Part shown: one piece after another, positions 3,291 through 27,784 of the stretch
Layout of the letters: every line of letters begins with the position of its first letter
How positions within the stretch are numbered: position 1 is the stretch's first letter
Source: a virus
IMG/VR virus record: IMGVR_UViG_3300032293_001670
Span: 1-32,293 of that record
Strand: one strand, 5' to 3'
DNA length: 32,293 nt
Position numbers and translations under genes: made by a program
The notes under the pieces: generated by a model
The model's input: the letters and a program-made list of their open reading frames with translations, nothing else
The model's database searches: none
What the model was told of the DNA's origin: nothing

Positions 3291-4586
3291 ATGTATTTCA
3301 TTATTGAAGATAAAGAACAGTTGAGTCGTCTAGAAATGTCTGATCAGGCATTTATTCAAGTAGTTACTTCAAACGATTATTACCACCCAAAGTTAGCTAG
3401 AGTAAGTTTAATTTATTATAATAATTCTAGTAAGGGATATATTTTTGTAATTAACCATTGTGAAGGATTTAGTTTAGATCTTAAATTAGTTCAAGAATTC
3501 TTACAAAAGCATAATAAGATTTATCTTCTTGATAAGAAAATGCACTCTTATTTTTTAGATCTACCTAATTCTATTGATGTACAATTTATTTGTTTAGACA
3601 AAAATAATGAATATAGTTCTTTTGAGTGCAATACACCAGTCCATAGGGATTTTTATATTAAGCATCCTATTTTACCTACTATAAACGAAATCATTCCTAT
3701 TTCTAAACACTATGAGAAATGCGAATGTTTGTATCAAATGGTAAAAGACTACTTTGAACTTGAGATGGATATAGAACTTCAAGACAAATTAGTCGATGCA
3801 TATAAAACGGTTGAGCAAGCTGGAATAAAAGTTGATCTTAGTTGTCTAAATAAAAAGTACCAATTCCAGCACAAAGAATATTCTCTTTTAGGAGACATAA
3901 TCTATTCTTACTATAATCTTTATAATTTAACAGCTAGACCGACTAACTCTTTCAATAGTGTCAACTTTCTAGCCATACCTAAAGATAAAGACTTTAGAGA
4001 GTGTTTTGTACCTAAAAATGACTATTTGGTAGAATTTGACTTTGATGCATATCATTTAAGATTAATATCTGGCCTTATAGGATTTGAACCTCCTAAAGAG
4101 TCTATGCATAACTACCTGGGACGCGCGTATTTCAATACCACCGAGCTCACAGATGAACAGTATAAAGAATCAAAGGCCATTACATTCAAACAGCTTTATG
4201 GTGGTATAGAACAACAATACCAACATATAGAGTTCTTTAAGGCATTAGATCAATTTATAGAACAAGAGTGGAAGAAATACAATGCCCACAAAGCCTTGAT
4301 TTTGCCTACCGGTAGAATATTAAAAAAGCTACCAGGAATGAACAAATTAAAATTGTTTAACTATATTGTCCAGAACTTAGAGACAAAAGAAAATATATAT
4401 AAGATATTAGAGGTAAATAAGCTTCTTAGCAAAAAGAAGACAAAATTGATATTAATTACCTATGATTCTTTTTTGTTTGATTTTTCTCAAGAAGATGGTA
4501 AATCTCTGCTAAAAAAGATTAAACAAATCCTAGAAGGAAATGACATGTTAGTCAAACATAAGTATGGAGTAAACTATGCTTTCTAA
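3291..4586 (+). CDS. Divergent second family A DNA polymerase-like protein
   Basis: A 431-residue protein whose C-terminal 220 residues carry the order of motifs of DNA polymerase I. ARPTNSFNSVNFLAIP (215-230) corresponds to the T-G-R-x-S...LQNIP block. EFDFDAYHLRLIS is motif A, with catalytic Asp250. KAITFKQLYGG is motif B/O-helix, with Lys295, Phe299 and Tyr303 matching E. coli K758, F762 and Y766. ITYDSFLFDF is motif C, with Asp392 but Tyr-Asp-Ser instead of His-Asp-Glu. The Glu of motif A (E. coli E710) is His here. The first ~150 residues may be a degenerate 3'-5' exonuclease fold; neither D-x-E nor H-N-x-x-F-D is present, so no proofreading is expected. It is distinct from the full polymerase at 12239. 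Both metal-binding Asp survive, so activity is possible. Start context is AGGTTATG. Confidence 0.65.
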   Translation: MYFIIEDKEQLSRLEMSDQAFIQVVTSNDYYHPKLARVSLIYYNNSSKGYIFVINHCEGFSLDLKLVQEFLQKHNKIYLLDKKMHSYFLDLPNSIDVQFICLDKNNEYSSFECNTPVHRDFYIKHPILPTINEIIPISKHYEKCECLYQMVKDYFELEMDIELQDKLVDAYKTVEQAGIKVDLSCLNKKYQFQHKEYSLLGDIIYSYYNLYNLTARPTNSFNSVNFLAIPKDKDFRECFVPKNDYLVEFDFDAYHLRLISGLIGFEPPKESMHNYLGRAYFNTTELTDEQYKESKAITFKQLYGGIEQQYQHIEFFKALDQFIEQEWKKYNAHKALILPTGRILKKLPGMNKLKLFNYIVQNLETKENIYKILEVNKLLSKKKTKLILITYDSFLFDFSQEDGKSLLKKIKQILEGNDMLVKHKYGVNYAF

Positions 4587-4622: not shown

Positions 4623-5051
4623 ATGAGAAATGAGGAATTTTTGGAAATAACATCGGAATCAATTATGAATAAACTTTTTTGTACTTTCTCTCCAAAGGAG
4701 TCTTTAGAAGACACTTTAAGGGACATAAATAGAGAGTACACAATTCTATATAAAAAAATCTTTGTTTTGGCTTCCCCTGACTCAGAAGAATATATGTGTA
4801 CATATAATATTGAGATAGAAGGAGGGCAAACTAGAATTTTACCTAATACAATTCTACTTCATAGAAAGAAAGAGTCTAATACTTTATACACTATAAACGC
4901 CTTGAATACTTTAATCAAGACTTTAAATAATGGTGTTCTAGATTCTACTTTTCCTATTAACTGGCCTGACTACAAGAACTCTATCTTGTTAACTCAAGGA
5001 GAAGACCTGAAAAGGTTGAATACTACTATCCATAAGATAGTTGCTATATAA
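4623..5051 (+). CDS. Hypothetical protein between second polymerase and SSB
   Basis: A 142-residue soluble protein without signal peptide, transmembrane segment or cysteine cluster. The C-terminal half (ILPNTILLHRKKESNTLYTI, then a helical stretch and PINWPDY) looks compact and well ordered, and the reading frame is well separated by gaps of 36 and 62 bases. I do not recognise the family. Location between a polymerase-like gene and the single-stranded DNA-binding protein gene suggests a replication or late-transcription accessory role, as in T4-like phages where small regulators sit beside gene 32, but nothing in the sequence proves it. It starts with AAGGTTATG. Confidence 0.5.
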   Translation: MRNEEFLEITSESIMNKLFCTFSPKESLEDTLRDINREYTILYKKIFVLASPDSEEYMCTYNIEIEGGQTRILPNTILLHRKKESNTLYTINALNTLIKTLNNGVLDSTFPINWPDYKNSILLTQGEDLKRLNTTIHKIVAI

Positions 5052-5113: not shown

Positions 5114-5920
5114 ATGGATATATCAGTTATCAAATCAAGATTGTCGGCTCTACAAAATCCACGTGGAGGACAAAAGAAGGACCTAAGCCAAACTATTTGG
5201 AGGCCTGCCGTGGGTAAACACTCAGTACGTATCGTACCTTCTGTGTTTAATAAACAAAATCCATTTAAAGAAGTCTACATGCATTATGGTATTAACAATC
5301 GTACCATGATCAGTTTGTCTAACTTTAATGAAAAAGATCCTATTGTTGAATTTGCTCAAGGACTTCGCAAGTCAAGTGAACGTGACAATTGGCAACTAGC
5401 TAAAAAGCTTGAACCAAAAATGCGTGTATTTGCTCCTGTAATTGTCCGTGGTGAAGAAGACAAAGGTGTTCGTCTTTGGGAATTTGGTAAGCAAGTTTAC
5501 ATGGATTTGCTTTCTATCGCAGAAGATGAAGATGTAGGAGATTATTCTGATCCAATTACTGGTCGTGACATTACAGTTGAAACTGCTGGTAAAGAAACAA
5601 CAGGCTTGATGTACAATACATCTACTGTTAGGGTTAGAACAAAATCAACTCCACTTTCTGATGATGCAGATAAAGTAAAACTGTGGCTCGAAACACAACC
5701 AGATCCATTGGCTCAATTTAAAAGATATTCTTATGATGAGATGAAAGAAGCACTTCTTAAGCATCTTAATCCAGAAGAAGAATTGAAAGAACAAGCTGAT
5801 GCTGTAGAAGCTAAACCACAAGGTGATCTTCCATGGGAAAAGCCAGCGCAAGGTCAGTATACGTTAAATACGACTAAGCCAAATGTAGATTCGGCAATTG
5901 ATGATCTTTTCGATATCTAA
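5114..5920 (+). CDS. Single-stranded DNA-binding protein, T4 gp32-like
   Basis: A 268-residue protein with the gp32 layout. There is a short basic N-terminal segment for cooperative self-interaction, then an OB-fold core (VGKHSVRIVPSVFN near 33-46; RLWEFGKQVYMDLLSIAEDE near 120-139, the most diagnostic block). An acidic, disordered tail ends in SAIDDLFDI and would contact helicase, recombinase and other partners. T4 gp32 binds zinc through one His and three Cys; this protein has no cysteine at all, so the zinc site is lost. It would coat ssDNA at forks and recombination intermediates. The gene ends in a strong intrinsic terminator, separating it from uvsX. Confidence 0.85.
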   Translation: MDISVIKSRLSALQNPRGGQKKDLSQTIWRPAVGKHSVRIVPSVFNKQNPFKEVYMHYGINNRTMISLSNFNEKDPIVEFAQGLRKSSERDNWQLAKKLEPKMRVFAPVIVRGEEDKGVRLWEFGKQVYMDLLSIAEDEDVGDYSDPITGRDITVETAGKETTGLMYNTSTVRVRTKSTPLSDDADKVKLWLETQPDPLAQFKRYSYDEMKEALLKHLNPEEELKEQADAVEAKPQGDLPWEKPAQGQYTLNTTKPNVDSAIDDLFDI

Positions 5921-5966: not shown

Positions 5967-7028
5967 ATGGCAAAATCAGTTACAGGCGCTGTGTCTAGCG
6001 CAATTAAAGACATTTCAAGTTTAGAGAAATTTAAGAAAGGAAAAAACCTTTCAACTAGCGTAGTATTTAAAGAGCAAAGATGGATTCCACTTTCTCAAGC
6101 ATTTCAAGAAACACTACAAATCCCAGGTATTCCAGTTGGTCATATTACTCTTTTAAGAGGACATTCTGATACAGGTAAAACTACGGCACTTCTTGAAGCA
6201 GCAGTTAGTGCACAAAAAATGGGTATTCTTCCTGTATTCATTATCACAGAAATGAAGTGGGATTGGAGTCATGCTAAAGAAATGGGATTTGAATATGAAG
6301 AAGTAGCAGATCCAAATACTGGTGAAGTTATTGATTATAAAGGTTTTTTCTTGTATATTGATCGAGAAAAGCTAGAGTCTATTGAAGATGTATCAGCATT
6401 TATTGCAGATATTCTTGATGAGCAAAAAAGAGGAACTTTACCTCATGACATTTGTTTCTTCTGGGATTCTGTAGGATCTATTCCTTGTAGAATGAGTGTT
6501 GAAAAATCAACAAACAATAATGAGTGGAATGCAGGAGCAATGTCTCAACAATTTGGTAATTTTATTAATCAAAGAATTGTATTATCTCGTAAAGCATCGC
6601 AACCATATACTAATACACTTGTAGCGATTAATAAAGTTTGGGTAGCAAAACCTGATTCACCAATGGGACAACCTACGCTTAATAATAAAGGTGGTAACAC
6701 AATGTATTTTGACTCATCACTAGTAGTTACATTTGGTAACATTGCTAGAGCTGGTACAAATAAAATTAAAGCTACAAAGAATGGTAAGGAAGTAGAATTT
6801 GCTAAGAGAACTAGAATTAGCTGCGATAAAAATCATGTTACTGGAGTAACCGCAGTTAACAAAGTTATCATGACAGTTCACGGATTTATCAAAGATGATA
6901 AAAAGGAGCTTGATGAGTACAAGAAAAAGTATTCTGATCAATGGACAAAAGTTCTTGGATCAAGTACATTTGATGTTGTAGAAGAAGAAACAGCGCTATC
7001 TCCTGACATTTTTGATACAGAAGATTAA
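5967..7028 (+). CDS. uvsX: UvsX/RecA-like recombinase
   Basis: A 353-residue RecA-fold ATPase. Walker A is GHSDTGKT (65-72), a conserved Glu follows strand 2 in FIITEMKWDW (91-100), and the Walker B strand is DICFFWDSVGS (161-171). A later NKVWVAKPDSP / NNKGGNTMYF stretch corresponds to the L2 and ATP-cap region of phage UvsX proteins. It would form filaments on ssDNA and drive strand invasion in recombination-dependent replication and repair. It is the first gene of a coupled operon: its stop overlaps the next start as TAATG at 7028. Family placement is UvsX-like rather than bacterial RecA because of phage context and the divergent Walker A. Confidence 0.85.
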   Translation: MAKSVTGAVSSAIKDISSLEKFKKGKNLSTSVVFKEQRWIPLSQAFQETLQIPGIPVGHITLLRGHSDTGKTTALLEAAVSAQKMGILPVFIITEMKWDWSHAKEMGFEYEEVADPNTGEVIDYKGFFLYIDREKLESIEDVSAFIADILDEQKRGTLPHDICFFWDSVGSIPCRMSVEKSTNNNEWNAGAMSQQFGNFINQRIVLSRKASQPYTNTLVAINKVWVAKPDSPMGQPTLNNKGGNTMYFDSSLVVTFGNIARAGTNKIKATKNGKEVEFAKRTRISCDKNHVTGVTAVNKVIMTVHGFIKDDKKELDEYKKKYSDQWTKVLGSSTFDVVEEETALSPDIFDTED

Positions 7029-8038
7029 TGAATAAAGAATATCAAAAAATATTCGACTCTCTTAAATCAGAGAAAGCCGAAGCATCACTCAATAGTAGAG
7101 TTCTACTTATTGATGGATTGAATACTTTTCTAAGAGCATTTACTGCAATTGGTTGGGTTAATAAAGATCTATCTCATATAGGAGGTTTAACCGGTTTTTT
7201 ACGTTCTTTAGGGTATGTAATTAAATTGGTTAGACCAACTAGAGTGATTGTTGTGTTTGATGGACAAGGATCATCTACTAATAAAAGATATATCTATCCA
7301 GAATATAAAGCAAATAGAGGTCTTAATAGAGTTACTAATTGGGATTCATTTGATTCACAACAAGACGAATCAGAAGCTATTACACATCAAATTGTTAGAC
7401 TAATATATTATTTAAAGACACTTCCTGTTGATCTTATATCTATCGATAAAATTGAAGCAGATGATGTAATAGGATATATAACAGGCAAATTAGATGGTGA
7501 AGTAACTATTATGTCTAGTGATAAAGATTATCTACAATTAGTATCAGATAAAATAACAATCTATTCTCCTACAAAAAAAAGGTTCTATGATGAAGATCTT
7601 GTTTTAACAGAATTTGGAGTTACTCCTAAAAACTTTTTAACACAAAAGATACTTTTAGGAGATTCTGGAGATAATGTTCCTGGAGTAAAAGGTTTAGGAT
7701 CTAAGACAATGTTAAAACATTTTCCTGAACTAGGATCAGATAAACAAATCACTCTAGATGATGTATTACAAAAATGTGAAGGTAAGCATAAAATACTAGA
7801 ATCTATTAAGAACTATGAATTTCAACTTAGAATAAATAAAAAGTTGATGGACTTAAAAGATCCTAATATTCCTGAAGAAGCAATAGAAGAAATAAATAGT
7901 GTTTTACTAGATCCAAAAAAGATATATGATTCACAGGAATTCTTAAATTTGTATCATGAAGATCAATTAGGCAATTCAATACCTAATGTTCAGTCATGGT
8001 TGTTTAATCATTTTCACGATCTACAAAAATATAAATAA
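7028..8038 (+). CDS. 5'-3' exonuclease / RNase H (FEN family)
   Basis: A 336-residue protein with all the acidic motifs of the T4 RNase H/T5 FEN/Pol I 5'-nuclease family: LLIDGLNTF (Asp29), VVFDG (Asp78), EADD (143-146), SSDKDYLQL (Asp165, Asp167) and GDSGDNVPG (Asp212, Asp215), the last followed by a helix-hairpin-helix VKGLGSKTM that grips duplex DNA. These residues bind the two metal ions. The expected role is removal of RNA primers and flaps from Okazaki fragments, complementing the polymerase at 12239, which has no 5'-nuclease domain. The start overlaps the uvsX stop by one base and the helicase gene follows after 3 bases, so translation is probably coupled. Confidence 0.87.
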   Translation: MNKEYQKIFDSLKSEKAEASLNSRVLLIDGLNTFLRAFTAIGWVNKDLSHIGGLTGFLRSLGYVIKLVRPTRVIVVFDGQGSSTNKRYIYPEYKANRGLNRVTNWDSFDSQQDESEAITHQIVRLIYYLKTLPVDLISIDKIEADDVIGYITGKLDGEVTIMSSDKDYLQLVSDKITIYSPTKKRFYDEDLVLTEFGVTPKNFLTQKILLGDSGDNVPGVKGLGSKTMLKHFPELGSDKQITLDDVLQKCEGKHKILESIKNYEFQLRINKKLMDLKDPNIPEEAIEEINSVLLDPKKIYDSQEFLNLYHEDQLGNSIPNVQSWLFNHFHDLQKYK

Positions 8039-8041
8039 GTT

Positions 8042-9427
8042 ATGTCGTCATTAAATCAGTTACAGCAGTACGGTATTAGTTTTCAAATCAAGGTATTATC
8101 AAGTTTATTAAAGCATAAAGAGTTTCTACAAAATATATACGATATACTTGATACAGAAATGTTCGATAATCCAGCACACAAATGGATTGTCGGTGAGATA
8201 TTAAGATACTACTACAAATATAATACAACTCCATCAACTGACGCTCTACAAGTTGAAGTAAGAAAGATTGAGAATGAAGTACTCAAGATTAGTGTAGTAG
8301 AGCAATTAAAAGAAGCATTAAAAAGCTCTAATGAAGATAGAGATTATGTAGAACAAGAGTTTAGTAGCTTCTGTAAAAATCAGCAAATTAAAAAAGCTAT
8401 TTTAAGTTCAGTATCTTTACTTGAAAAAGGCCAATATGATGATATCAAGTATATGATAGATCAGGCTTTAAAAGCAGGACAAGAGAAGTCTATAGGACAC
8501 GAATATGAAAAAGATATTGAAACAAGATATCGTGAAGAAGAAAGAGCCCCAATGCCAACATTCTGGCCACACATTAACGAGTTGCTAATGGGAGGTTTAG
8601 GTGTGGGTGATCTAGGTATTATATTTGGTAATCCTGGTGGAGGTAAGTCATGGATGCTTGTTAATATAGGGGCTGAAGCAGTAAAGAGAGGATATACTGT
8701 TTGTCACTATACATTAGAGCTATCAGAGTATTATGTAGGTAAACGTTATGATGCATTGTTTACAGGTATTGATGTACAAAGCGTACAAAAGAATAGACAG
8801 ACTATTGAAGATACTGTTAGCAAAATTAAAGGTAAGCTTATCATTAAAGAATTCCCTATGGGAAAAGCTACTACACATACAATTGAATCACATATTCAAA
8901 AATGTAGAGATCTAGGATATCCTCCAGATTTGGTTATTATTGACTACGTTGACTTGCTAAAAAGCAAAACTAAGTCAATAGATCCTAAAGACGCAATTGA
9001 TGACGTATACACTGCTACAAAAGGTATGGCAAGAGAGCTTAAAGTACCTATCTGGACAGTATCCCAGGTTAATCGTGCTGGTGCTAAAGATGATGTGATT
9101 GAAGGAGATAAGGCAGCAGGATCATATAATAAAATGATGATTGCAGACTTTGCCATGTCTCTATCTAGAAAAAGACAAGACAAAGTAAATGGAACAGGTC
9201 GTATTCATATTATGAAAAACCGATATGGTATGGATGGTATGACTTATGCAGCCAAGATAAGTACTAATAATGGGTATATAGAGATTAATCCGGATAGTAT
9301 GGATGACGATGAATTAACATTTGAAACATCTACCCCAATATCAGGATCTAATAAGTCTTTTAACTCAGGTTTAGATAAAGATGAGAAGGCTTATTTAGCA
9401 GGTAAATTTTTTGAGCTAGGATTATAA
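8042..9427 (+). CDS. Replicative DNA helicase, DnaB/gp41-like
   Basis: A 461-residue protein with an N-terminal helical domain (to ~150) and a RecA-like C-terminal motor. Walker A is GNPGGGKS (196-203), followed by the Glu-containing YTLELSEYYVGKR. Walker B is PDLVIIDYVDLL (295-306), then motif H3 IWTVSQVNRAGA and an arginine-finger region near MKNRYGMDG. This is the DnaB/T4 gp41 hexameric 5'-3' helicase layout. No zinc-binding primase domain is fused, so primase must be elsewhere. The stop of the exonuclease gene and the ATG are separated by only GTT, giving the recurring GTTATG start. It is the third gene of the uvsX-exonuclease-helicase operon. Confidence 0.88.
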   Translation: MSSLNQLQQYGISFQIKVLSSLLKHKEFLQNIYDILDTEMFDNPAHKWIVGEILRYYYKYNTTPSTDALQVEVRKIENEVLKISVVEQLKEALKSSNEDRDYVEQEFSSFCKNQQIKKAILSSVSLLEKGQYDDIKYMIDQALKAGQEKSIGHEYEKDIETRYREEERAPMPTFWPHINELLMGGLGVGDLGIIFGNPGGGKSWMLVNIGAEAVKRGYTVCHYTLELSEYYVGKRYDALFTGIDVQSVQKNRQTIEDTVSKIKGKLIIKEFPMGKATTHTIESHIQKCRDLGYPPDLVIIDYVDLLKSKTKSIDPKDAIDDVYTATKGMARELKVPIWTVSQVNRAGAKDDVIEGDKAAGSYNKMMIADFAMSLSRKRQDKVNGTGRIHIMKNRYGMDGMTYAAKISTNNGYIEINPDSMDDDELTFETSTPISGSNKSFNSGLDKDEKAYLAGKFFELGL

Positions 9428-9807: not shown

Positions 9808-11658
9808 ATGGACATCACGCAGCAAATTCTATCAGAAATTACGGTATACAATAAGTACGCAAAATATCTACCAGAATTTAAAAGACGTGAAACGTGGAAT
9901 GAAATAGTTACAAGAAATAAGGAAATGCACCAACAAAAGTTTCCTTCTTTATTTAATGAAATCGAAGACGTTTATAAACTCGTATATGATAAAAAGATTC
10001 TTCCGTCAATGCGTTCAATGCAATTTGCAGGAAAACCCATTGAAATTAATAATGCTCGTATATTTAACTGCTCTTTTGCTCCTATTGATGACTGGCGTGT
10101 ATTTTCAGAAGTAATGTTTCTTCTTTTAGGAGGTTGCGGTGTAGGATATTCAGTTCAACATCATCACATAGATCAACTTCCTGAGATTATTAAGCCAATT
10201 AAAGAAAAACGTTTCTTAGTTGGAGACTCTATTGAGGGTTGGGCTGATGCAATTAAAATATTGATGAAGTCGTATCTTGTAGGTGGACCTAGACCTAAAT
10301 TTGATTTTCGTGACGTTAGACCTAAAGGCGCAATGTTAATTACAGCAGGAGGTAAAGCTCCTGGTCCTGAACCTTTAAAAGAGTGTTTATTCCAAATACA
10401 AAAAATTCTCGATCGTAAAGAAACTGGTGATAAATTAAAGCCAATTGAATGCCATGATATTATTTGCTATATTGCAGATGCAGTATTATCTGGTGGTATT
10501 CGTCGTGCGGCTTTGATTAGCTTATTCTCTTTCAATGATGAAGAAATGCTTACATCTAAGTTTGGTAACTGGTGGGAACAAAACCCCCAAAGAGGGAGAG
10601 CTAACAACTCAGCAGTTATACTTCGTGATCGAATTCAAAAAGAAGAGTTCATGGATCTTTGGAAAAAGATTGAATTGTCTAATGCAGGTGAGCCTGGATT
10701 TTTCTTAACTAACGACAAAGATTGGGGAACTAATCCATGTGCCGAGATTGCACTTAGACCATTCCAATTCTGTAACCTGTGTGAAGTTAATGTATCCAAT
10801 CTTGAGTCTCAAGAAGATCTAAATAAAAGAGCTAAAGCTGCAGCATTTATCGGTACTCTTCAAGCTTCATATACAGACTTTCATTATCTCCGTGATATTT
10901 GGAAAAAAACAACAGAAAAAGATGCGTTAATTGGCATTGGCATGACAGGTATTGCGTCAGGTGCCGTGTTAAAATTAAACATGAAAGAAGCTGCTCAAAT
11001 AGTAAAAGAAGAAAACGAAAGACTTGCAAAAGTTATTGGAGTTAATAAAGCTGCAAGATGTACAACAGTTAAGCCTTCAGGAACAACATCAATGGTTCTT
11101 GGTACTTCATCGGGAGTACATGCTTGGCATGATAATTTCTATATTCGTAGAATGAGACTTGGTAAAAATGAAGCTCTTTATACATACCTTTCTATTTATC
11201 ATCCTGAATTAGTAGAAGACGAATACTTCAAGCCACAATCACAAGCTGTAGTATCTGTTCCGCAAAAATCTCCTGAAGGAGCAATTACAAGATCTGAATC
11301 TGCAGTTGATCTACTTCATAGACTTGAAAAACTACATAAAGAGTGGATTAAACCAGGACATAGAACAGGACGCAATACTCACAATGTATCAGTAACTATT
11401 TCTCTTAAACCAGAAGAGTGGCCGGAAGTTGGTGAATGGGCATGGGCAAATAGAAATAACTATACTGCATTATCATGTCTACCTTATGACAATGGTTCTT
11501 ATGTTCAAGCTCCTTTTGAAACTATCACTAAAGAAAAATTTAATGAGATTGTTGGTAAACTTCATGAAGTAGATCTTAGTAAAGTAGTTGAAGTTGAAGA
11601 TAATACTGATCAAAAAGGTGAATTAGCCTGCGCAGGAGGTGCTTGTGAAATCATCTAA
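9808..11658 (+). CDS. nrdJ: Class II (adenosylcobalamin-dependent) ribonucleotide reductase
   Basis: A 616-residue monomeric-type class II RNR. The active-site loop NPCAEI supplies the thiyl-radical Cys311 and Glu313. Cys88 (in FNCSF) and Cys322 form the internal redox pair; the 11-residue spacing from Cys311 equals that of C408/C419 in the Lactobacillus leichmannii enzyme. The C-terminal CAGGAC (Cys608, Cys613) is the swinging pair reduced by thioredoxin. It is shorter than the ~739-residue Lactobacillus enzyme, and no N-terminal ATP-cone is evident. It makes deoxynucleotides without oxygen or a NrdB subunit, but needs host B12 cofactor. No class I genes are in the window. The thioredoxin at 27786 may reduce it. 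Its 3' end contains the ribosome-binding site and start of the next gene. Confidence 0.88.
   Translation: MDITQQILSEITVYNKYAKYLPEFKRRETWNEIVTRNKEMHQQKFPSLFNEIEDVYKLVYDKKILPSMRSMQFAGKPIEINNARIFNCSFAPIDDWRVFSEVMFLLLGGCGVGYSVQHHHIDQLPEIIKPIKEKRFLVGDSIEGWADAIKILMKSYLVGGPRPKFDFRDVRPKGAMLITAGGKAPGPEPLKECLFQIQKILDRKETGDKLKPIECHDIICYIADAVLSGGIRRAALISLFSFNDEEMLTSKFGNWWEQNPQRGRANNSAVILRDRIQKEEFMDLWKKIELSNAGEPGFFLTNDKDWGTNPCAEIALRPFQFCNLCEVNVSNLESQEDLNKRAKAAAFIGTLQASYTDFHYLRDIWKKTTEKDALIGIGMTGIASGAVLKLNMKEAAQIVKEENERLAKVIGVNKAARCTTVKPSGTTSMVLGTSSGVHAWHDNFYIRRMRLGKNEALYTYLSIYHPELVEDEYFKPQSQAVVSVPQKSPEGAITRSESAVDLLHRLEKLHKEWIKPGHRTGRNTHNVSVTISLKPEEWPEVGEWAWANRNNYTALSCLPYDNGSYVQAPFETITKEKFNEIVGKLHEVDLSKVVEVEDNTDQKGELACAGGACEII
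11634..11640 (+). promoter_or_regulatory. Shine-Dalgarno sequence inside the RNR 3' end
   Basis: AGGAGGT, a full anti-SD match, sits 4 bases before the GTG at 11645 and decides that start over the GTG at 11639. It is unusual here, because most genes in the window have no SD. It also encodes part of the RNR redox tail, so partial coincidence cannot be excluded. Confidence 0.45.
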
Positions 11659-12238: not shown

Positions 12239-14542
12239 ATGAATAAAAGTTATGTTACAGTTGATTCGATAGATAAACTTAAAGATCTTATCGAACATAT
12301 AAAGTCGTGTGAAATAATCGCATTCGATACTGAGACCAATAGTCTTAATCCTCGTAAAGGTAAGATCATTGGTTTTTCTGTCTCTGGTGAAGTTGGTAAA
12401 GGATACTACATGCCAACTATGATATTCAAAGATGATGAGCTTCAAGATGCTATCATTGAAGGTAAATTAGCACATGATCTTGCAAAAAAAACAATCTCTC
12501 TACTTATTGGTAAAAAACTAATCATGCATAACGCATCATTTGACGTTAAATTCGTTAAGTGTTTTTATGATGTAGATTTATTATCAAGTCTTTATGTAGA
12601 TACTATGCTTCTTGTTCATACAGTAAAAGAAGAAGGCGCAGGCTTCATGGGAGGTTCTGCATTTGGTCTTAAAGACATTGCTAAGATGATTCAAAAAGAT
12701 ATTGGTCTAGATGTAGAAAAAGCTGCAAATGAAGAGCAAGTTGCTCTTAAAGAATCAATAAAAAGAAATGGCGGTCAGATAACACGAGAGAACTATGAGA
12801 TATGGAAAGCAGACCTTGAACTACTTTCAGAATATGCATCAGCAGATACTGACTTAACTCTTAGAGTTTATAATCATTTTATCAAAACACTTAAAGATGA
12901 GAACCTTGAAAAGTTCTTCTTTGAAGATGAAGTAATGCCTCTTTACAAAGAGGTTACTATTCCTATGGAACAAGTTGGTATCAAACTTGACATGGAACTT
13001 ATAAAGTCTAGCCGTACTAAAATTACAGAAAAGCTAAAAGAGTATGCTGATTCAGTAACAAAAGAACTACTTAAGAATCCAGATGTTAGAGCATGGGTAG
13101 TATATAAAGCTCAAGATGCATATCCACCAAATAATAAAGGTACATTTGCTCAAGAGCTAGTTAAAGAAATGAAGTTTGATTTAGAACAATCTGCTAAGAC
13201 TGGTAAATATACCGTAACTAAGTCTGCATTAATGAGACTTCCTGAATGTTCTGCTAAACATTTTCTACTTCATGGTGATGCCGCTGTATTAGATCGTGAT
13301 GTTAGCATGAAGATTAGTATGAAGTTATGGAGAGAAGATAATGATGGAGCGTATTTCAATATCCAGTCTAAAGATCAACTCGGTGAAATTGCTTTTGGTG
13401 TATTAGGTATTAAACCTTTATCTACTACAAAAACAGGTAAACCCCAATTTGATGATGATACTGTTCAATCAATAGCAGGCAAATACGAGTGGGCAAAAAA
13501 CTTACGTATCTATAATAGACTACTTAAAATCAAGAGTACTTATATGGATCGTTTCTTAGATGCTCAAGAAGATGGTAGATACTACTTTTATTATAAACAA
13601 CATGGTACAGTATCAGGACGTTATGGTTCTGATGCACAACAGCTTCCTAGACCTAAAGAAGAAGGTGATGATGAACCAATTGTAATTGAGTATAATAACT
13701 TGATTCGAGCATTCTTTATTCACGATAAAGGAAATATATTTGTAGACTGCGACTATGAATCACTCGAACCTCACACATTTGCTCACGTATCTGGTGATGA
13801 AGGACTAAAAGATATTTTTAGAAATAACTGGGACTTCTATTCTACTATTGCAATCAAAACAGAAAAGCTAAATCAATATTCACCAGATAAAAAAGCTCCT
13901 AACTTCCTTCGTAAGCTCGAACCTAAGTTGAGAAATAAAGCAAAGGCTTATGCTCTAGGTATTCCTTATGGTATGGGAGCTTATGCACTTGGCATGACTC
14001 TTAGTATTCCTACTAAAGAAGCTAAGAAGCTTGTTGATGGTTACTTAAACGGGTTTCCTGAACTTAAGAATTGGATGGAAAGATCTAAAAAACAAGCTAA
14101 GGAAAAAGGATATGTTAGTACTCAAGTTGGTCGTATTCGACATCTTCCTAAAGTAAAAGCTATCTACGATAAGATTGGTGATGACTTACTTGATTGGAAC
14201 ATCAAGAAAGAAATGGAAAGGCAATACGGTGTAGATCAAATTAAAAATCTTAGTAGAGACTATATTAATGGACTAAATAACTCTTGTAACGTACAGATCC
14301 AAGGTCTTGCTGCATCAATAGTTAACCGTGCAGCATTGGCTATCAATAGAAAGTTCATAGAACTAGGTATACGCGGCTGGGTATGCGCCCAAATCCATGA
14401 CCAGTTAGTTATCGAGGTAGAACAAGCCAGATCAGAAGAAGCGTCCAGGATTGTCCAGGATTTGATGGAGAACACTACTAAACTTAGTATTAACTTAAAA
14501 GCTCCTCCAGCATTGGCCCACAATCTTCGTGATGGACACTAA
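12239..14542 (+). CDS. polA: DNA polymerase I (family A) with 3'-5' exonuclease
   Basis: A 767-residue replicative polymerase. The proofreading domain has ExoI FDTET (Asp30, Glu32), ExoII HNASFD (Asp102) and ExoIII YASAD (Asp203). In the polymerase domain, motif A is DCDYESLEP (Asp505). Motif B is RNKAKAYALGIPYG (Arg565, Lys569, Tyr577; E. coli R754, K758, Y766). Motif C is IHDQLVIEV (His720, Asp721, with Gln instead of Glu). The position equal to E. coli F762 is Leu573. There is no 5'-nuclease domain; that activity is supplied by the gene at 7028. There is an insertion of mixed charge between the exonuclease and thumb. It is probably the main fork polymerase. Start context is TAGTTATG, 6 bases after the preceding gene. 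Confidence 0.9.
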   Translation: MNKSYVTVDSIDKLKDLIEHIKSCEIIAFDTETNSLNPRKGKIIGFSVSGEVGKGYYMPTMIFKDDELQDAIIEGKLAHDLAKKTISLLIGKKLIMHNASFDVKFVKCFYDVDLLSSLYVDTMLLVHTVKEEGAGFMGGSAFGLKDIAKMIQKDIGLDVEKAANEEQVALKESIKRNGGQITRENYEIWKADLELLSEYASADTDLTLRVYNHFIKTLKDENLEKFFFEDEVMPLYKEVTIPMEQVGIKLDMELIKSSRTKITEKLKEYADSVTKELLKNPDVRAWVVYKAQDAYPPNNKGTFAQELVKEMKFDLEQSAKTGKYTVTKSALMRLPECSAKHFLLHGDAAVLDRDVSMKISMKLWREDNDGAYFNIQSKDQLGEIAFGVLGIKPLSTTKTGKPQFDDDTVQSIAGKYEWAKNLRIYNRLLKIKSTYMDRFLDAQEDGRYYFYYKQHGTVSGRYGSDAQQLPRPKEEGDDEPIVIEYNNLIRAFFIHDKGNIFVDCDYESLEPHTFAHVSGDEGLKDIFRNNWDFYSTIAIKTEKLNQYSPDKKAPNFLRKLEPKLRNKAKAYALGIPYGMGAYALGMTLSIPTKEAKKLVDGYLNGFPELKNWMERSKKQAKEKGYVSTQVGRIRHLPKVKAIYDKIGDDLLDWNIKKEMERQYGVDQIKNLSRDYINGLNNSCNVQIQGLAASIVNRAALAINRKFIELGIRGWVCAQIHDQLVIEVEQARSEEASRIVQDLMENTTKLSINLKAPPALAHNLRDGH

Positions 14543-15654: not shown

Positions 15655-15945
15655 ATGAATAAAATAACCCCACTAAATGGCTATATAGTATTAAAGCCAA
15701 TCGAAAGCGAAGAAGAAACATTTGGTAATATTATCATTCCTGATCTTGGTAAAGAAAGACCTGAGATGGGAAAAGTAGTAGCAACATCCAATGTTTATAA
15801 TTACAACACAGACAAACTAGTTATCTCGACTCTTGAAGAAGGAGAGACTGTATTAATCCCTAAACTTGGTTCACAAAGAATCGTATTTGAAGGACAAGAC
15901 TATTTCATTTGTAAAGAATCAGATATTTTAGGAGTTATTGAATAA
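15655..15945 (+). CDS. groES: Co-chaperonin GroES (Cpn10)
   Basis: A 96-residue protein of normal Cpn10 length. Strand LNGYIVLKPIESEEE leads into the mobile loop TFGNIIIPDLGKERPEMG, whose III tripeptide replaces the usual I-V-L that docks to GroEL. VVATSNVYNYN follows, then GETVLIPKLGS, and the ending DYFICKESDILGVIE is the typical l-i-x-r-e-x-D-I-L-g-v close. It caps the phage GroEL encoded 13 bases downstream, and perhaps the host GroEL too, as T4 gp31 does. Confidence 0.85.
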   Translation: MNKITPLNGYIVLKPIESEEETFGNIIIPDLGKERPEMGKVVATSNVYNYNTDKLVISTLEEGETVLIPKLGSQRIVFEGQDYFICKESDILGVIE

Positions 15946-15958
15946 AATAAAAAAGACT

Positions 15959-17590
15959 ATGAGTACAACAAAAAACGTTTTTGGAACAGAGCTTAAAGAA
16001 AAGTTACTTTCCGGTATAGAAAAGTTAAATCAATCAGTATCATCAACATTAGGTCCTGGTGGTCGCACAGTATTAATTCGTGAACAAAATGGTGAAGTTA
16101 AAGTTACAAAAGATGGTGTAACAGTAGCTAAAGCATTTCATAAACTTGAAGATGATATTGAAGATCTTGGTGCACAACTTGTTAAGCAAGTTAGTATTAA
16201 ATCTGCAAATGAAGCAGGTGATGGTACAACAACATCTACACTTCTTGCTACTGAAATGATTAAACAAGGTCTTAAAGAAATTCGTCAAGGCGTTAACGCT
16301 GTTGAGATTAAGAATGAGATTGACAATATCGTTAATGAAGTAGTAAAAGAAATTAAAGAATTAGCAACAGAAATTTCTTCAGAAGAGCAAATTAAACAAG
16401 TTGCAACTATCTCAGGTAATAATGATCCTGAAGTTGGTAACTTAATTGCTGAAGCACTTGATAAAGTAGGTCGTGAAGGTGTAGTAACTATTGAAGAATC
16501 TAAAACTGGTGAAACTACATTAGAGATTGTTGAAGGTATGCAATTTGATCGTGGTTACAAATCACCTTACTTTGTAACTAACAATGTAACAATGCAATCT
16601 GTGCTTGATAATCCATATATTCTTTTATATGATGGACGTATTTCAACTGCACAAGAGTTGTTACAAGTATTGACTAAAGCAAATTCAGAGAATAGACCTT
16701 TATTAATTATCGCTGAAGATATTGGTGATGAAGCTCTTGCTACATTAATTGTAAATAAAATGCGTGGTATTGTACAAGTTTGCGCAGTTAAAGCACCAGA
16801 CTTTGGTGAGCGTAAAACATTAATCTTAGAAGATATTGCTATCTTGACAGGTGGACAAGTTATTTCTAAAGATAAAGGTTTGAAGCTTGATAAATTATCT
16901 ACACAGCAACTCGCTCAATATCTTGGTACAACAAGACTTGTAACTGTATCTAAAGAAGAGACTACTATTATTGATGGTAAAGGTAATGAGAGAGCGATTG
17001 AAGTTAGAGCAGAAGAAATAAAAGAGCAAATTGAAAAAGCTACATCGTTCTACGAGAAAGAGAAGTTGCAAGAAAGACTTGGTAAGTTGATTGGTGGTGT
17101 TGCAATTATTTCTGTAGGTGGTAATAGTGATATTGAGATTAGAGAAAAGAAAGATCGTGTAGAAGATGCATTATTTGCAACTAAAGCAGCTCTTGCTGAC
17201 GGTATCGTACCTGGTGGTGGTGCAACACTTTATAGAGTAGCACTTAATCATAGAGCAGAAAGCAATAGCAATGTAGCAATCGCTAGAGATATTGTTTGCA
17301 ATGCTTTACAAGCACCATTTATTAAGATTTTATCTAATGCTGGTGTAGAAGACTGGTGGAATTATATTCCAAGCGAATTAGTAAAAAATAAAATTTATGA
17401 TGCAAAGAATCATAAAATGGTAGATGCGTTTGAATCAGGCATCATTGATCCAGCTAAAGTTGTTATTACAGCACTTAAGAATGCAACATCAGTAGCAGGA
17501 ACTATTTTGACAACTGAATCTGTTGTATTTGAAAAGAAAGAAAAAAATGACAAGTCAGATCCTATGATGGACATGACTATGGGAATGTAA
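15959..17590 (+). CDS. groEL: Chaperonin GroEL (Cpn60)
   Basis: A 543-residue full-length chaperonin. Equatorial ATP site: TLGPGGRTV near 28-36, GDGTTT near 84-89 with the catalytic Asp, DRVEDAL with the hydrolytic Asp, and [10 protein letters not shown]. Apical domain: [23 protein letters not shown] and helix residues for GroES and substrate binding. It ends in a Met-rich [10 protein letters not shown] tail, like the GGM repeats of bacterial GroEL. The ATG at 15959 is chosen because GroEL proteins begin close to this point; an in-frame TTG at 15938 would overlap groES. A complete phage-encoded GroEL/ES pair suggests that phage proteins, probably capsid subunits, need a dedicated folding chamber. 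Confidence 0.9.
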
Positions 17591-21203: not shown

Positions 21204-21606
21204 GCAAAAAATACTAAACAGAGTATTTATTAACATAGCTAAGGAAACTTCTACTCTGTCACACTGCGTTCGATCAAAAGTCGGCGCAGTTTTAGTTAAA
21301 GATGGCAATATAATATCATTTGGATATAATGGCACTCCTGCAGGTATGGACAACACTTGTGAGAAAGATGGTGTCACTCTGCCCCATGTTATCCACGCAG
21401 AAGTGAATGCCGTCCTAAAAGCCGCAAAATGTGGCAACTCTGTAGATGGTTCCACTTTGTACTTAACACTTAGTCCTTGTTTAGACTGCTCTAAACTTAT
21501 TTTGCAATCAGGAATAAAAAAAGTTATATATTTGAATGTATATCGAAATACTCAAGGCATAGACTTTTTATCACAATTTATACAAGTAGAACAATATGGA
21601 CAATAA
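21142..21606 (+). CDS. dCMP deaminase
   Basis: A zinc-dependent deaminase with HAEVNA (zinc His85 and proton-shuttle Glu87, counting from ATG 21142) and SPCLDC (Cys113, Cys116). CVRSKVGAVLVKDGNIISFGYNGTP is the typical N-terminal strand region of dCMP/dCTP deaminases. It converts dCMP to dUMP for thymidylate synthesis. The first ATG gives a 62-base overlap with the dUTPase gene; GTG at 21178 (MDSVLQDF...) would shorten it and is also plausible. The start of the following TS-like gene overlaps the last 11 bases. Confidence 0.87.
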   Translation: MNYQTEIHKEAQVDSVLQDFKQKILNRVFINIAKETSTLSHCVRSKVGAVLVKDGNIISFGYNGTPAGMDNTCEKDGVTLPHVIHAEVNAVLKAAKCGNSVDGSTLYLTLSPCLDCSKLILQSGIKKVIYLNVYRNTQGIDFLSQFIQVEQYGQ

Positions 21607-22243
21607 AATTTATTCGACCCCTACTAGTGCATTTGAAAACTTATTTCATTATATTGTAGATACAGGTGAAGACTTTGCTAATACTAAAGCTAAGTTCAAT
21701 GTTTCTTTTACAATCGATAATCCAGCAGATAAAGTAATTACAACTCCTAGACGTAAGTTTAACCAAGATTATGCAGAATATGAATGGGAATGGTATGTTA
21801 AAGGAGATAGAGATGCTAAACAAATCGCAGAACGCGCTAAGATATGGAATCAAATGATGATACCATATACTACAGAAGTAAACTCTAACTACGGGTACTT
21901 CTGGAATTATAATGAACAACTTAACAAAGTTATTAGCGAACTAAAAAGAAATAAAGAAACACGTCGAGCAATTGTTGTACATTACATTCTACACGAAATA
22001 GATAGATACAAATATGATACACCTTGTAATGACGTACTTAATTTCTATATCAAAAACGATAAACTACATCTTACAGTCTTTGCTAGATCCATTGATCTTG
22101 TGTTTGGTTTCTGTAACGACCAATACACATTTGCTAAACTAATGGAGTTAGTTTCAGAAAAGACAGGCTATCCAGTAGGTCAAATGCATTGGTTTATCAC
22201 AAATCTACATGTTTATCCTAGGCATTACGACATGTTCAACTAA
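21596..22243 (+). CDS. Thymidylate synthase-family protein, probable dCMP hydroxymethylase
   Basis: A 215-residue member of the TS family, shorter than ThyA (264 in E. coli) and T4 gp42 (246). It keeps catalytic Cys144 (DTPCNDVLNF), the phosphate-binding Arg pair (TRRAIVV, 123-124), RSIDLVFGF and the C-terminal LHVYPRHYD. In ThyA the base-recognising Asn lies in G-L-P-F-N; here the block reads G-F-C-N-D, putting Asp175 at the Asn position in an ungapped comparison. T4 dCMP hydroxymethylase has Asp at the same place, so dCMP is the likely substrate and 5-hydroxymethyl-dCMP a likely product. Asn174 next door leaves room for dUMP. A separate true ThyA lies at 23881. Confidence 0.65.
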   Translation: MDNKIYSTPTSAFENLFHYIVDTGEDFANTKAKFNVSFTIDNPADKVITTPRRKFNQDYAEYEWEWYVKGDRDAKQIAERAKIWNQMMIPYTTEVNSNYGYFWNYNEQLNKVISELKRNKETRRAIVVHYILHEIDRYKYDTPCNDVLNFYIKNDKLHLTVFARSIDLVFGFCNDQYTFAKLMELVSEKTGYPVGQMHWFITNLHVYPRHYDMFN

Positions 22244-23586: not shown

Positions 23587-23881
23587 ACAATTAAATATGG
23601 TAAAGGTTTTAACTACGGCTGTCATAGTAGCTATGGCAATGCTATTTATTCAAGTTTATTTTACATCATCTTCACAAAAGCAACTAAAAGAAGTTCAATC
23701 AATTTGTGATAGTTTACAAACTAGAGTACTACAAGCAGAAAATTTTGCTGATAGTATTAAAAGCGAATTATTCGTATATGAAACTCAATTAAATCGTTAT
23801 TATATTGCTCTTGAGATGTTAGAAAATGAAAACTATGCCGCAGCATCTGAATTTAATAAACGCTTATCAATGACTGAATAA
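23558..23881 (+). CDS. Small single-span membrane protein with coiled coil
   Basis: A 107-residue protein with a membrane segment (about residues 17-36, VLTTAVIVAMAMLFIQVYF) followed by a charged coiled coil (QKQLKEVQSICDSLQTRVLQ) extending to the C-terminus. No family is recognised. It overlaps the upstream small membrane protein gene by 29 bases and the thymidylate synthase gene by one base (TAATG at 23881). It may work with the preceding membrane protein; no direct evidence. Confidence 0.5.
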   Translation: MKTSTTKYTKQLNMVKVLTTAVIVAMAMLFIQVYFTSSSQKQLKEVQSICDSLQTRVLQAENFADSIKSELFVYETQLNRYYIALEMLENENYAAASEFNKRLSMTE

Positions 23882-24924
23882 TGAATAATATTGATCGTCA
23901 ATATAAAGAAATATTAGAACATATTCTACATTTTGGTGTAGATAAAAAAGATCGTACAGGTACAGGAACTAAATCAATCTTTGGTTGGCAAATTAGGCAC
24001 AATATGAAAGAAGGCTTTCCATTGTTGACTACAAAGAAGATGGCGTGGAAAACTATGGTGACTGAGTTATTATGGTTTTTAAGAGGCGATACTAATATCA
24101 AATTCTTATTAGATTACGATTGCCATATTTGGGATGGTGATGCATATAAAAATTACGCAAACAAATTTGCAGGATATGAAGATGTTCCATCAAAAGAATG
24201 GTTTATTAATGAAATAAAAAACAATAAAGAATTTTCTGAAAAATATGGTGATTTAGGTCCAATCTATGGTGCGCAATGGAGAAATTGGTTGAATATTCCA
24301 AATGAAATTAATAAAGGTGGTATAGATCAAATACAAAACTTAATTAACGAACTCAAAAAAAATCCTGATAGTAGACGACTAATGGTTAGTGCATGGAATG
24401 TAAGTGAGTTAAATCAAATGGTACTTCCACCTTGCCATTATGGATTTCAAATATATACTAGAGAATTAAGTATAAAAGAAAGAGTTGCAGAATACGAAAA
24501 AAGAGGATACATAAAAAATATTGATCCATTAGATTATGCTCCTTCAAGAGCCATATCTCTGATGTGGAACCAAAGAAGCATAGATACATTTCTTGGTTTA
24601 CCATTTAATATTGCGTCTTACGCACTACTACTTGAAATTATTGCTAAAGAAGTAAATATGGTACCTGAAGATTTGATTGGTAATTTAGGCGACGTTCATT
24701 TATACAATAATCATATTGAACAAGCTAAAGAACAAATAACTAGAACTCCTTATGAATTACCTAAAGTACAAATTACTGAAAGAAATTGGTACATGCATGA
24801 AGCAGTTAAAGAACATCTTGGAGAAAAAACATTTAGTGAAAAGATACTTAGTTATAGACCAGATTGTTTTGAGTTGATAGATTATCAATCACATCCAAAA
24901 ATTAAAGCTCCATTATCAAATTGA
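23881..24924 (+). CDS. thyA: Thymidylate synthase (ThyA family)
   Basis: A 347-residue TS with DRTGTGTKSIFG near the start (folate/phosphate loop), Arg165-Arg166 (phosphate from the partner subunit), catalytic Cys185 in LPPCHYGFQIY, QRSIDTFLGLPFNIASYALL with the dUMP-recognising Asn243, and GDVHLYNNHIEQ. It makes dTMP from dUMP using methylene-tetrahydrofolate. It is longer than E. coli ThyA (264) because of insertions, including one near 190-225 just after the active-site strand. Asn243 contrasts with Asp175 in the TS-family gene at 21596, so the two paralogues probably use different bases. A dUMP hydroxymethylase activity cannot be excluded by sequence alone. Confidence 0.88.
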   Translation: MNNIDRQYKEILEHILHFGVDKKDRTGTGTKSIFGWQIRHNMKEGFPLLTTKKMAWKTMVTELLWFLRGDTNIKFLLDYDCHIWDGDAYKNYANKFAGYEDVPSKEWFINEIKNNKEFSEKYGDLGPIYGAQWRNWLNIPNEINKGGIDQIQNLINELKKNPDSRRLMVSAWNVSELNQMVLPPCHYGFQIYTRELSIKERVAEYEKRGYIKNIDPLDYAPSRAISLMWNQRSIDTFLGLPFNIASYALLLEIIAKEVNMVPEDLIGNLGDVHLYNNHIEQAKEQITRTPYELPKVQITERNWYMHEAVKEHLGEKTFSEKILSYRPDCFELIDYQSHPKIKAPLSN

Positions 24925-26969: not shown

Positions 26970-27170
26970 ATGACATACGAACAAAGACGCGACTTACTAC
27001 TTAAAACAATGAGAAAGCAAACAGATCATTGGCTTAAAGAAGATCAATACGCAGACTGGGAAAAAAAGAATAAACCTAAACAAACTTATACTTTTAAGCC
27101 TAAAAGGTATATTAGGACAAAAGATATTTATAATAAAGAATGTTTAGAACATTATTATCCGCAGCGTTAG
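26970..27170 (+). CDS. Small basic hypothetical protein
   Basis: A 66-residue protein, very rich in Lys, Arg, Tyr and Trp (LLLKTMRKQTDHWLKEDQYA, then a KKNKPKQTYTFKPKRYIR stretch). No membrane segment or recognised fold; the composition suits nucleic-acid binding. It is the first plus-strand gene after the inverted tail-fibre block, and its 3' end overlaps the secreted nuclease gene by 31 bases, so the two are probably co-translated. Confidence 0.45.
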   Translation: MTYEQRRDLLLKTMRKQTDHWLKEDQYADWEKKNKPKQTYTFKPKRYIRTKDIYNKECLEHYYPQR

Positions 27171-27784
27171 TTCTTTTTCTTAGTGTTTCATTAAAAGCAC
27201 AAGATACAGTAAGATTAGTTCATAAACAGTACACTAGTGTATTTTCAAAATCATTAAAGTATCCAGTGTTAGTTGAGTGGTGGGTAACAAAAGAAAAGGT
27301 ATCATGTTTTAAATTAATACCAAGACAAGATAGGTTTGCACCAGATCCTCTTCTTTTCGCGTATACTGACTTAGCTAGTGATTACGTTGGATCGGGATAT
27401 GATCGCGGCCACATGGCTCCAGCAGCCGATAATCAATGTTCAGGACAAGATGCTATGATAGAATCATTTTATTTTTCTAACATGGCTCCACAATATGGGC
27501 AATTAAACAGAGGAGATTGGAAAACTTTAGAAATGAAAACTAGAGAATTAGCCAAGTCTTTAGACTCAGTTAAAGTATGGACAGGATCAGTAGGTGAGAA
27601 AAGAAAAATAGGAAAAGTATCTGTTCCTGATAAATGTTGGAAAGTTATTTATATAAAGAGTAAAAATGAATGGCAAGCTTATATATTTGAAAATGATCAG
27701 TCTAAAGCTGATGGAATAGAAAATAATAAAGTAGACATAAAAGAAGTAGAAAAATTAACTAACTTTAAATTTAAAATAGATTAA
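27140..27784 (+). CDS. Secreted DNA/RNA non-specific endonuclease (DRGH, Serratia-nuclease family)
   Basis: A 214-residue protein with a Sec signal peptide (FRTLLSAALVLFLSVSLKAQ; cleavage near 20). The beta-beta-alpha-metal core shows GYDRGHMAPAADN, with catalytic His91, then FYFSNMAPQ and LNRGDW, where Asn123 should hold Mg2+. These are the marks of the NUC1/Serratia nuclease family, which cuts DNA and RNA without sequence preference. The signal peptide places it in the periplasm or outside. Possible roles are destruction of incoming competitor DNA, release of nucleotides, or loosening of extracellular DNA at lysis. The nuclease identity is well supported; the purpose is inference. Confidence 0.85.
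   Translation: MFRTLLSAALVLFLSVSLKAQDTVRLVHKQYTSVFSKSLKYPVLVEWWVTKEKVSCFKLIPRQDRFAPDPLLFAYTDLASDYVGSGYDRGHMAPAADNQCSGQDAMIESFYFSNMAPQYGQLNRGDWKTLEMKTRELAKSLDSVKVWTGSVGEKRKIGKVSVPDKCWKVIYIKSKNEWQAYIFENDQSKADGIENNKVDIKEVEKLTNFKFKID

Follow-up and report, generated by a model that had tools for sequence, protein, structure and literature searches.

A divergent family A polymerase of the divPolA1 type, predicted to lack a thumb, at the head of a conserved phage replication block

The window, a 32,293-nt stretch of viral DNA (IMG/VR record IMGVR_UViG_3300032293_001670), encodes a 431-aa protein at 3291-4586 that belongs by homology, on the basis of profile and predicted fold, to the family A polymerase superfamily. 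It is almost certainly divPolA1. This family has already been published, and the protein is an additional member of it. Alignments and models show that divPolA1, which is carried by large tailed phages, derives from family A polymerases, has dispensed with proofreading and almost the entire thumb and has kept the two-metal active site. From gene context and anatomy, we infer with a probability of about 40% that it is a distributive accessory DNA polymerase of a recombination/lagging-strand module, which would make up a split Pol I together with the stand-alone nuclease FEN encoded nearby. The features of the window are listed in Table 1.

Table 1. Position and support of the divPolA1-type gene, its motifs and domains and the associated replication genes in the window.
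Feature	Position	Strand	Support or remark
divPolA1-type family A-like polymerase, 431 aa	3291..4586	+	ATG ORF; profile to Klenow; AF2 model; PDB fold match
Residues 1-160, putative vestigial 3'-5' exonuclease-fold domain	3291..3770	+	folded alone; Klenow match; without conserved catalytic acids
Place of thumb, residues 179-213, 35 aa	3825..3929	+	spacing, HMM alignment, model helix
Motif A, D250-F-D-A-Y-H255	4038..4055	+	His at Klenow E710 position
Motif B (O helix), Y291xxxK295xxxF299xxxY303-G304	4161..4202	+	Tyr at Klenow R754 position
Motif C, Y391-D392-S393	4461..4469	+	HDE in Klenow
Small conserved protein between polymerase and SSB genes	4623..5051	+	relatives in 64/86 loci
gp32-type single-strand DNA-binding protein (SSB)	5114..5920	+	PF08804 E 4.8e-10
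UvsX/RecA-type recombinase	5967..7028	+	phrog_97 E 8.9e-17
Stand-alone 5'-3' exonuclease (FEN)	7028..8038	+	PF02739 E 8.2e-31
DnaB-type replicative helicase	8042..9427	+	phrog_19 E 7.5e-78
Regular family A polymerase (PolA), 767 aa, full length, exonuclease domain present	12239..14542	+	PF00476 E 6.6e-64; PF01612 E 5.7e-14

As a single query, the protein matched no Pfam family, and a PDB sequence search with it alone returned nothing meaningful. A profile of 85 family members was related to Klenow structures with an E-value of 1.2e-4, and 42 of the 85 members matched PF00476 at E <= 0.1 (best 5e-11). The relative from immuto was found above the Pfam cut-off with 42.7 vs 34.3 bits and the relative from LR756508 below it with 26.8 bits (E 3.2e-6). 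The alignment for structure comprised 85 sequences and left out the annotated records L082, L084 and L085 as well as partial sequences. The AlphaFold2 model of the 431-aa protein had a mean pLDDT of 95.6 and a pTM of 0.91, and its best PDB matches by Foldseek were Pol I large fragments (E 2.6e-18). With VIA-align, 399 of 431 residues were aligned to the M. smegmatis structure (Z 27.5, rmsd 3.6) and 408 to the Bacillus large fragment (Z 27.4, rmsd 3.8). A palm/fingers fold, on which the preliminary description had made its assignment depend, is present in the model superposed on Pol I large fragments, and its claim of a second, divergent polymerase of family A that lacks proofreading is supported by profile, model and conservation. 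Like E. coli Pol I Klenow and the Bacillus large fragment, the protein has a palm, an O helix, the motif A and C Asp residues and an N-terminus of exonuclease fold. It differs from both in being thumbless, in its shorter fingers and in the replacement of E710 by His, of R754 by Tyr and of H881 by Tyr. Two canonical features of family A are thus missing, namely the RxxxK of motif B (YxxxK in 86/87 family members) and the thumb subdomain.

Residue numbers were verified on the E. coli Pol I sequence, in which DYSQIELR = 705-712, RRSAKAINFGLIYG = 754-767 and HDEL = 881-884. For conservation, 228 hits were reduced to 206 of 360-559 aa and then to 92 representatives with less than 85% mutual identity; 87 of these, with at least 395 aa, served for the counts of motif columns and spacings. 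D250, K295, Y303, H255 and Q361 were invariant in 92/92 representatives and D392 in all 91 whose sequence reaches it. Both catalytic Asp residues and K295/F299/Y303, which had been pointed out from the single sequence, are therefore present and conserved throughout the family, and the exchange of the motif A Glu for His as well as the YDS of motif C are borne out by the ORF translation. Position by position, D705 corresponded to D in 87/87 family members, K758 to K in 87/87, Y766 to Y in 87/87 and F762 to F in 85/87 (W in two). The E710 position was occupied by H in 87/87 and the R754 position by Y in 86/87 (Q in one). In motif C, Y was found at the H881 position and D at the D882 position in 87/87, followed at residue 393 by S (58/87) or A (29/87). 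The primer-terminus contact positions of Pol I were kept, with R at R668 (R216) in 87/87, Q at Q849 (Q361) in 87/87 and N at N845 (N357) in 86/87 (S in one), as expected for an enzyme that extends a paired end. Conventional phage PolAs served as controls, and all 140 distinct full-length sequences (72 of T7 type and 68 of co-resident type, from 160 loci) retained E710, R754 and H881; in their motif C Asp column, one T7-type sequence had K and one a gap. The dN/dS ratio ranged from 0.02 to 0.09 in four of seven pairs with computable dS, which was near saturation.

R754 of Pol I has a role in triphosphate binding. Pol I discriminates against ribonucleotides by means of E710 and F762, as stated in PMC7581432. 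Since the metal ligands and primer-terminus contacts are kept and the changes affect the sugar gate and a single phosphate ligand, the divPolA1 active site, as read from the alignment, is consistently altered and not decaying. A site so altered and yet strictly preserved suggests an enzyme with a specialised task and not a dead one. The substitutions Glu to His (87/87) and Arg to Tyr (86/87) are fixed, the metal-binding Asp residues are invariant and the gene is held in a core replication block despite differing regular polymerases, which makes it a clear target for asking if family A polymerases can function thumbless and which nucleotides they would then use.

The thumb is essentially absent, as indicated by sequence alignment, spacing and DSSP of the model. 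The region between G178 and T214 has 17-37 residues (median 27) in 87/87 family members. The thumb of Klenow has 121 residues, that of the co-resident PolA 211 and that of T7 gp5 195, a figure that includes the thioredoxin-binding insert. The HMM alignment skips from Klenow chain residue 232 to 330 at this point, and the model has a single short helix (183-189) in the region. The fingers are shortened as well, with a spacing from Y303 to Q361 of 56-63 residues vs 82 in Klenow. Pol I with a truncated thumb is described as active with reduced processivity and fidelity (Rice 2023, PMC10061031, citing Minnick 1996).

The N-terminal residues 1-160 were also modelled alone (pLDDT 94.5) and matched Klenow 331-517 with Z 13.8 and rmsd 2.9 over 152 of 160 residues. 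Among 70 sequences of this domain, only H32 and P136 were invariant, and of the acids only D96 reached at least 90%. The domain is called vestigial because the exonuclease fold is kept but none of the acids is invariant in the 70 sequences. The earlier statement that the N-terminus lacks exonuclease motifs thus holds for the residues but not for the fold.

The closest named relative, gp001 of the Flavobacterium phage immuto, is 35.3% identical over 99% of the protein (E 9e-69). Further carriers are Microcystis phage Mel-JY01 and LR756508, an unannotated 484-kb phage. A scan of viral contigs with the single protein confirmed 395 relatives, and two scans with family queries yielded at least 567 relatives each among the 600 stretches listed, with overlap between the sets. 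A scan with the LR756508 protein as sole query found no relative. Among bacterial and archaeal genome contigs, a relative was encoded in only 4 of 46 matched stretches, so that the family belongs essentially to viruses.

Yutin et al. (2024, PMC11348598) gave divPolA1 its name from 14 phages, immuto included. As characterised there, it has a truncated thumb, an inactivated exonuclease domain and retained catalytic residues in the palm, accompanies a regular DNA polymerase of family A, B or C and is followed by conserved replication genes; a replication role was suggested. Every defining feature that was tested was found in the protein, namely its occurrence in addition to a regular polymerase, the thumb, the exonuclease domain, the palm, the neighbours and the relationship to immuto. 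The main text of PMC11348598 contains none of the words 'arginine', 'histidine' and 'steric'; this refers to wording alone, and the His and Tyr changes are therefore not claimed as unreported. The protein is not described in the passages considered of PMC6302109, PMC7029224 and PMC7824862. Two family A polymerases in one phage had been called unusual, which is right for phages at large but not for this group, where the arrangement is ordinary and published as divPolA1 (PMC11348598). Thumb loss, the exchange of R754 for Y291 and the second polymerase as the rule in this phage group go beyond the preliminary description; the fixed His and Tyr substitutions and the thumb loss are the points worth testing.

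Gene order downstream was counted in 86 loci with more than 6 kb of downstream sequence, out of 227 loci bearing the gene. UvsX was encoded in 85/86, DnaB in 75/86 (7-kb limit) and SSB and FEN in 84/86 each, a count that does not represent 84 independent observations since the loci were fetched by similarity and include near-identical contigs. The order was constant, polymerase-(small ORF)-SSB-UvsX-FEN-DnaB, with divPolA1 at the head of the block. FEN is the nuclease that is present in Pol I as a fused part. A fusion of divPolA1 to FEN was not seen, and none of the 228 hits had an ORF of at least 480 aa. The small protein between the polymerase and SSB genes had no Pfam match and no convincing PHROG match; it is a candidate partner of divPolA1.

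As a control, SSB was used as bait and gave 79 new loci. The divPolA1 gene was found within the fetched flank in 8 of 30 loci with at least 5 kb upstream and in 2 of the 49 others. Whole records were searched for 14 of those 30 loci (12 of the 22 flank-negatives and two positives), and the gene was present in 13 of the 14, the exception being a 52.7-kb record. In SSB-bait records, the gene thus often lies farther upstream than the flank extends.

The regular polymerase differs between carriers. Among 16 records holding the divPolA1 gene, a full PolA was found in ten and PolB in four; PolC (PF07733) was found in one, LR756508, which also has PolB matches; neither PolA nor PolB was found in two short records (74-78 kb) of the 16. 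PolB was present in 6 of 7 further SSB-bait records. The divPolA1 gene stays, therefore, while the regular polymerase changes. In the reverse direction, 6 of 9 records picked by the regular PolA held the divPolA1 gene. The full polymerase that the preliminary description had placed at 12239 in the window was confirmed by its PF00476 match and exonuclease domain. A recent duplication of the phage's own PolA was considered as the origin of divPolA1 and rejected, as a family-vs-family profile comparison gave no match (probability 0.2, E 0.29; PolA alignment n=7). A DnaG-type primase was found in 5/5 records of at least 160 kb and in 6/16 records overall; its presence in the long records rules out that divPolA1 stands in for a missing primase. 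As separate observations, Leu occupies the Klenow F762 position in the regular PolA of the window and in 68/68 distinct full-length relatives, and LR756508 (L085, 484 kb) combines divPolA1 with a match to a PolC-type alpha subunit and with two open frames that match PolB.

In the proposed accessory role, divPolA1 would make short extensions, a few nucleotides long, of 3' ends at the sites where the phage SSB, UvsX and FEN nuclease act. A thumbless enzyme with retained terminus contacts is expected to add few nucleotides per binding, and the adjacency to FEN, SSB and UvsX suggests gap filling or the extension of recombination ends. FEN and divPolA1 would then correspond to Pol I split over two genes, with primer removal and gap filling, or the extension of recombination intermediates, as their task, and bulk synthesis would be left to the swappable regular polymerase. 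With the thumb lost, the motif B Arg replaced and the fingers shortened, the activity could also be very weak or of a different kind, and the adjacency to UvsX and SSB is compatible with several other roles.

One of these is a second, DnaG-independent way of making primers, in which a thumbless site with a His gate would start chains on SSB-coated template, possibly for restart at lesions or recombination bubbles. A precedent is known among family A, since the CcPol-MP/PolA-SSB primases share with divPolA1 the family A core, a reduced exonuclease domain and an SSB and helicase encoded alongside, and CcPol also has a shortened thumb, as described in the passages on these enzymes (PMC7581432; PMC10061031). 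The altered E710 and R754 positions, the thumb loss and the SSB and small protein encoded alongside divPolA1 fit this reading. In the window, the gp32-type SSB gene is located between the divPolA1 and helicase genes, where PolA-SSB primases have a small OB-fold partner encoded; divPolA1 resembles these primases and is at most a candidate member of their group. CcPol, however, keeps E710 and F762 (PMC7581432) whereas divPolA1 does not keep E710, and those elements use their enzyme instead of a DnaG or AEP primase, whereas divPolA1 phages also encode the DnaG type, without exception in the records of at least 160 kb. A primer-making role is unlikely.

A role in translesion synthesis or repair, in which the open, thumbless site would allow insertion opposite damage, is unlikely. 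The absence of proofreading and the UvsX neighbourhood would suit such a role, but nothing damage-specific was found and the strict co-conservation with the core replication block suggests a routine one. Similarly unlikely is a site that has been rebuilt at the sugar gate (Glu to His) and at the triphosphate-binding Arg (to Tyr) so as to carry out a new reaction, e.g. chain start or ribonucleotide use on template covered by SSB and UvsX. If this were true, the rebuilt site would provide a second, DnaG-independent start of synthesis in phages whose bulk polymerase is freely swapped between families. We regard it as improbable that divPolA1 has changed its substrate and acts as a nucleotidyl transferase or uses ribonucleotides: the sugar-gate and Arg exchanges, set against 140 of 140 unchanged controls, argue for it, but the positions contacting primer and template are kept. 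The loss of the motif B Arg and the position next to the SSB gene would also be in line with a catalytically dead scaffold or loader, e.g. a helicase loader acting at SSB. This is very improbable given that both catalytic Asp, the Lys and the Tyr are invariant over deep divergence, and the regulatory pseudo-polymerase considered in the preliminary description is unlikely for the same reason, the invariance of catalytic residues across the family. The modified-base polymerase offered there as a further option found no support. The 7-deazaguanine pathway marker QueC was present in only 5 of the 16 records holding the gene and was absent from G001 (162 kb), Mel-JY01 and LR756508, so that a polymerase specialised for 7-deazaguanine-modified phage DNA is extremely unlikely, even with QueC/D/E/F, FolE and DpdA present in immuto.

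The preferred accessory polymerase also has to be set apart from other reduced enzymes of the family. TV-Pol (Iyer et al. 2008, PMC2579912), which occurs in viruses and mobile elements, is likewise a family A polymerase reduced to a minimal core. In the description given there it has a two-helix thumb, an RxxxK motif and a D5-like helicase as partner and is never linked to a nuclease, whereas divPolA1 has neither the two-helix thumb nor RxxxK and is found in loci with FEN (84/86) and DnaB (75/86). Thus, divPolA1 is not a TV-Pol. The divPolA2 of barbaviruses is also an additional PolA that accompanies a regular polymerase and has no standard thumb, but it differs in an unrelated N-terminal domain and a variable neighbourhood and is set apart by the paper's own description (PMC11348598).

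Some further genes of the window were noted. GroES- and GroEL-like genes follow soon after the regular PolA (15655-17590, by eye), and immuto is arranged alike; chaperonins adjoin the regular polymerases of divPolA1 phages according to PMC11348598. A ribonucleotide reductase of 616 aa (9808-11658; phrog_367 E 5e-126) has a weak match to a B12-dependent insertion domain, unlike immuto, which is annotated with alpha and beta ribonucleotide reductase subunits. A nuclease-like ORF with a DRGHMAPA motif was seen by eye at 27140-27784, and an endonuclease G-like gene is annotated in immuto. Two thymidylate synthase-like ORFs (21596-22243 and 23881-24924, by eye) might reflect base modification or dTMP supply.
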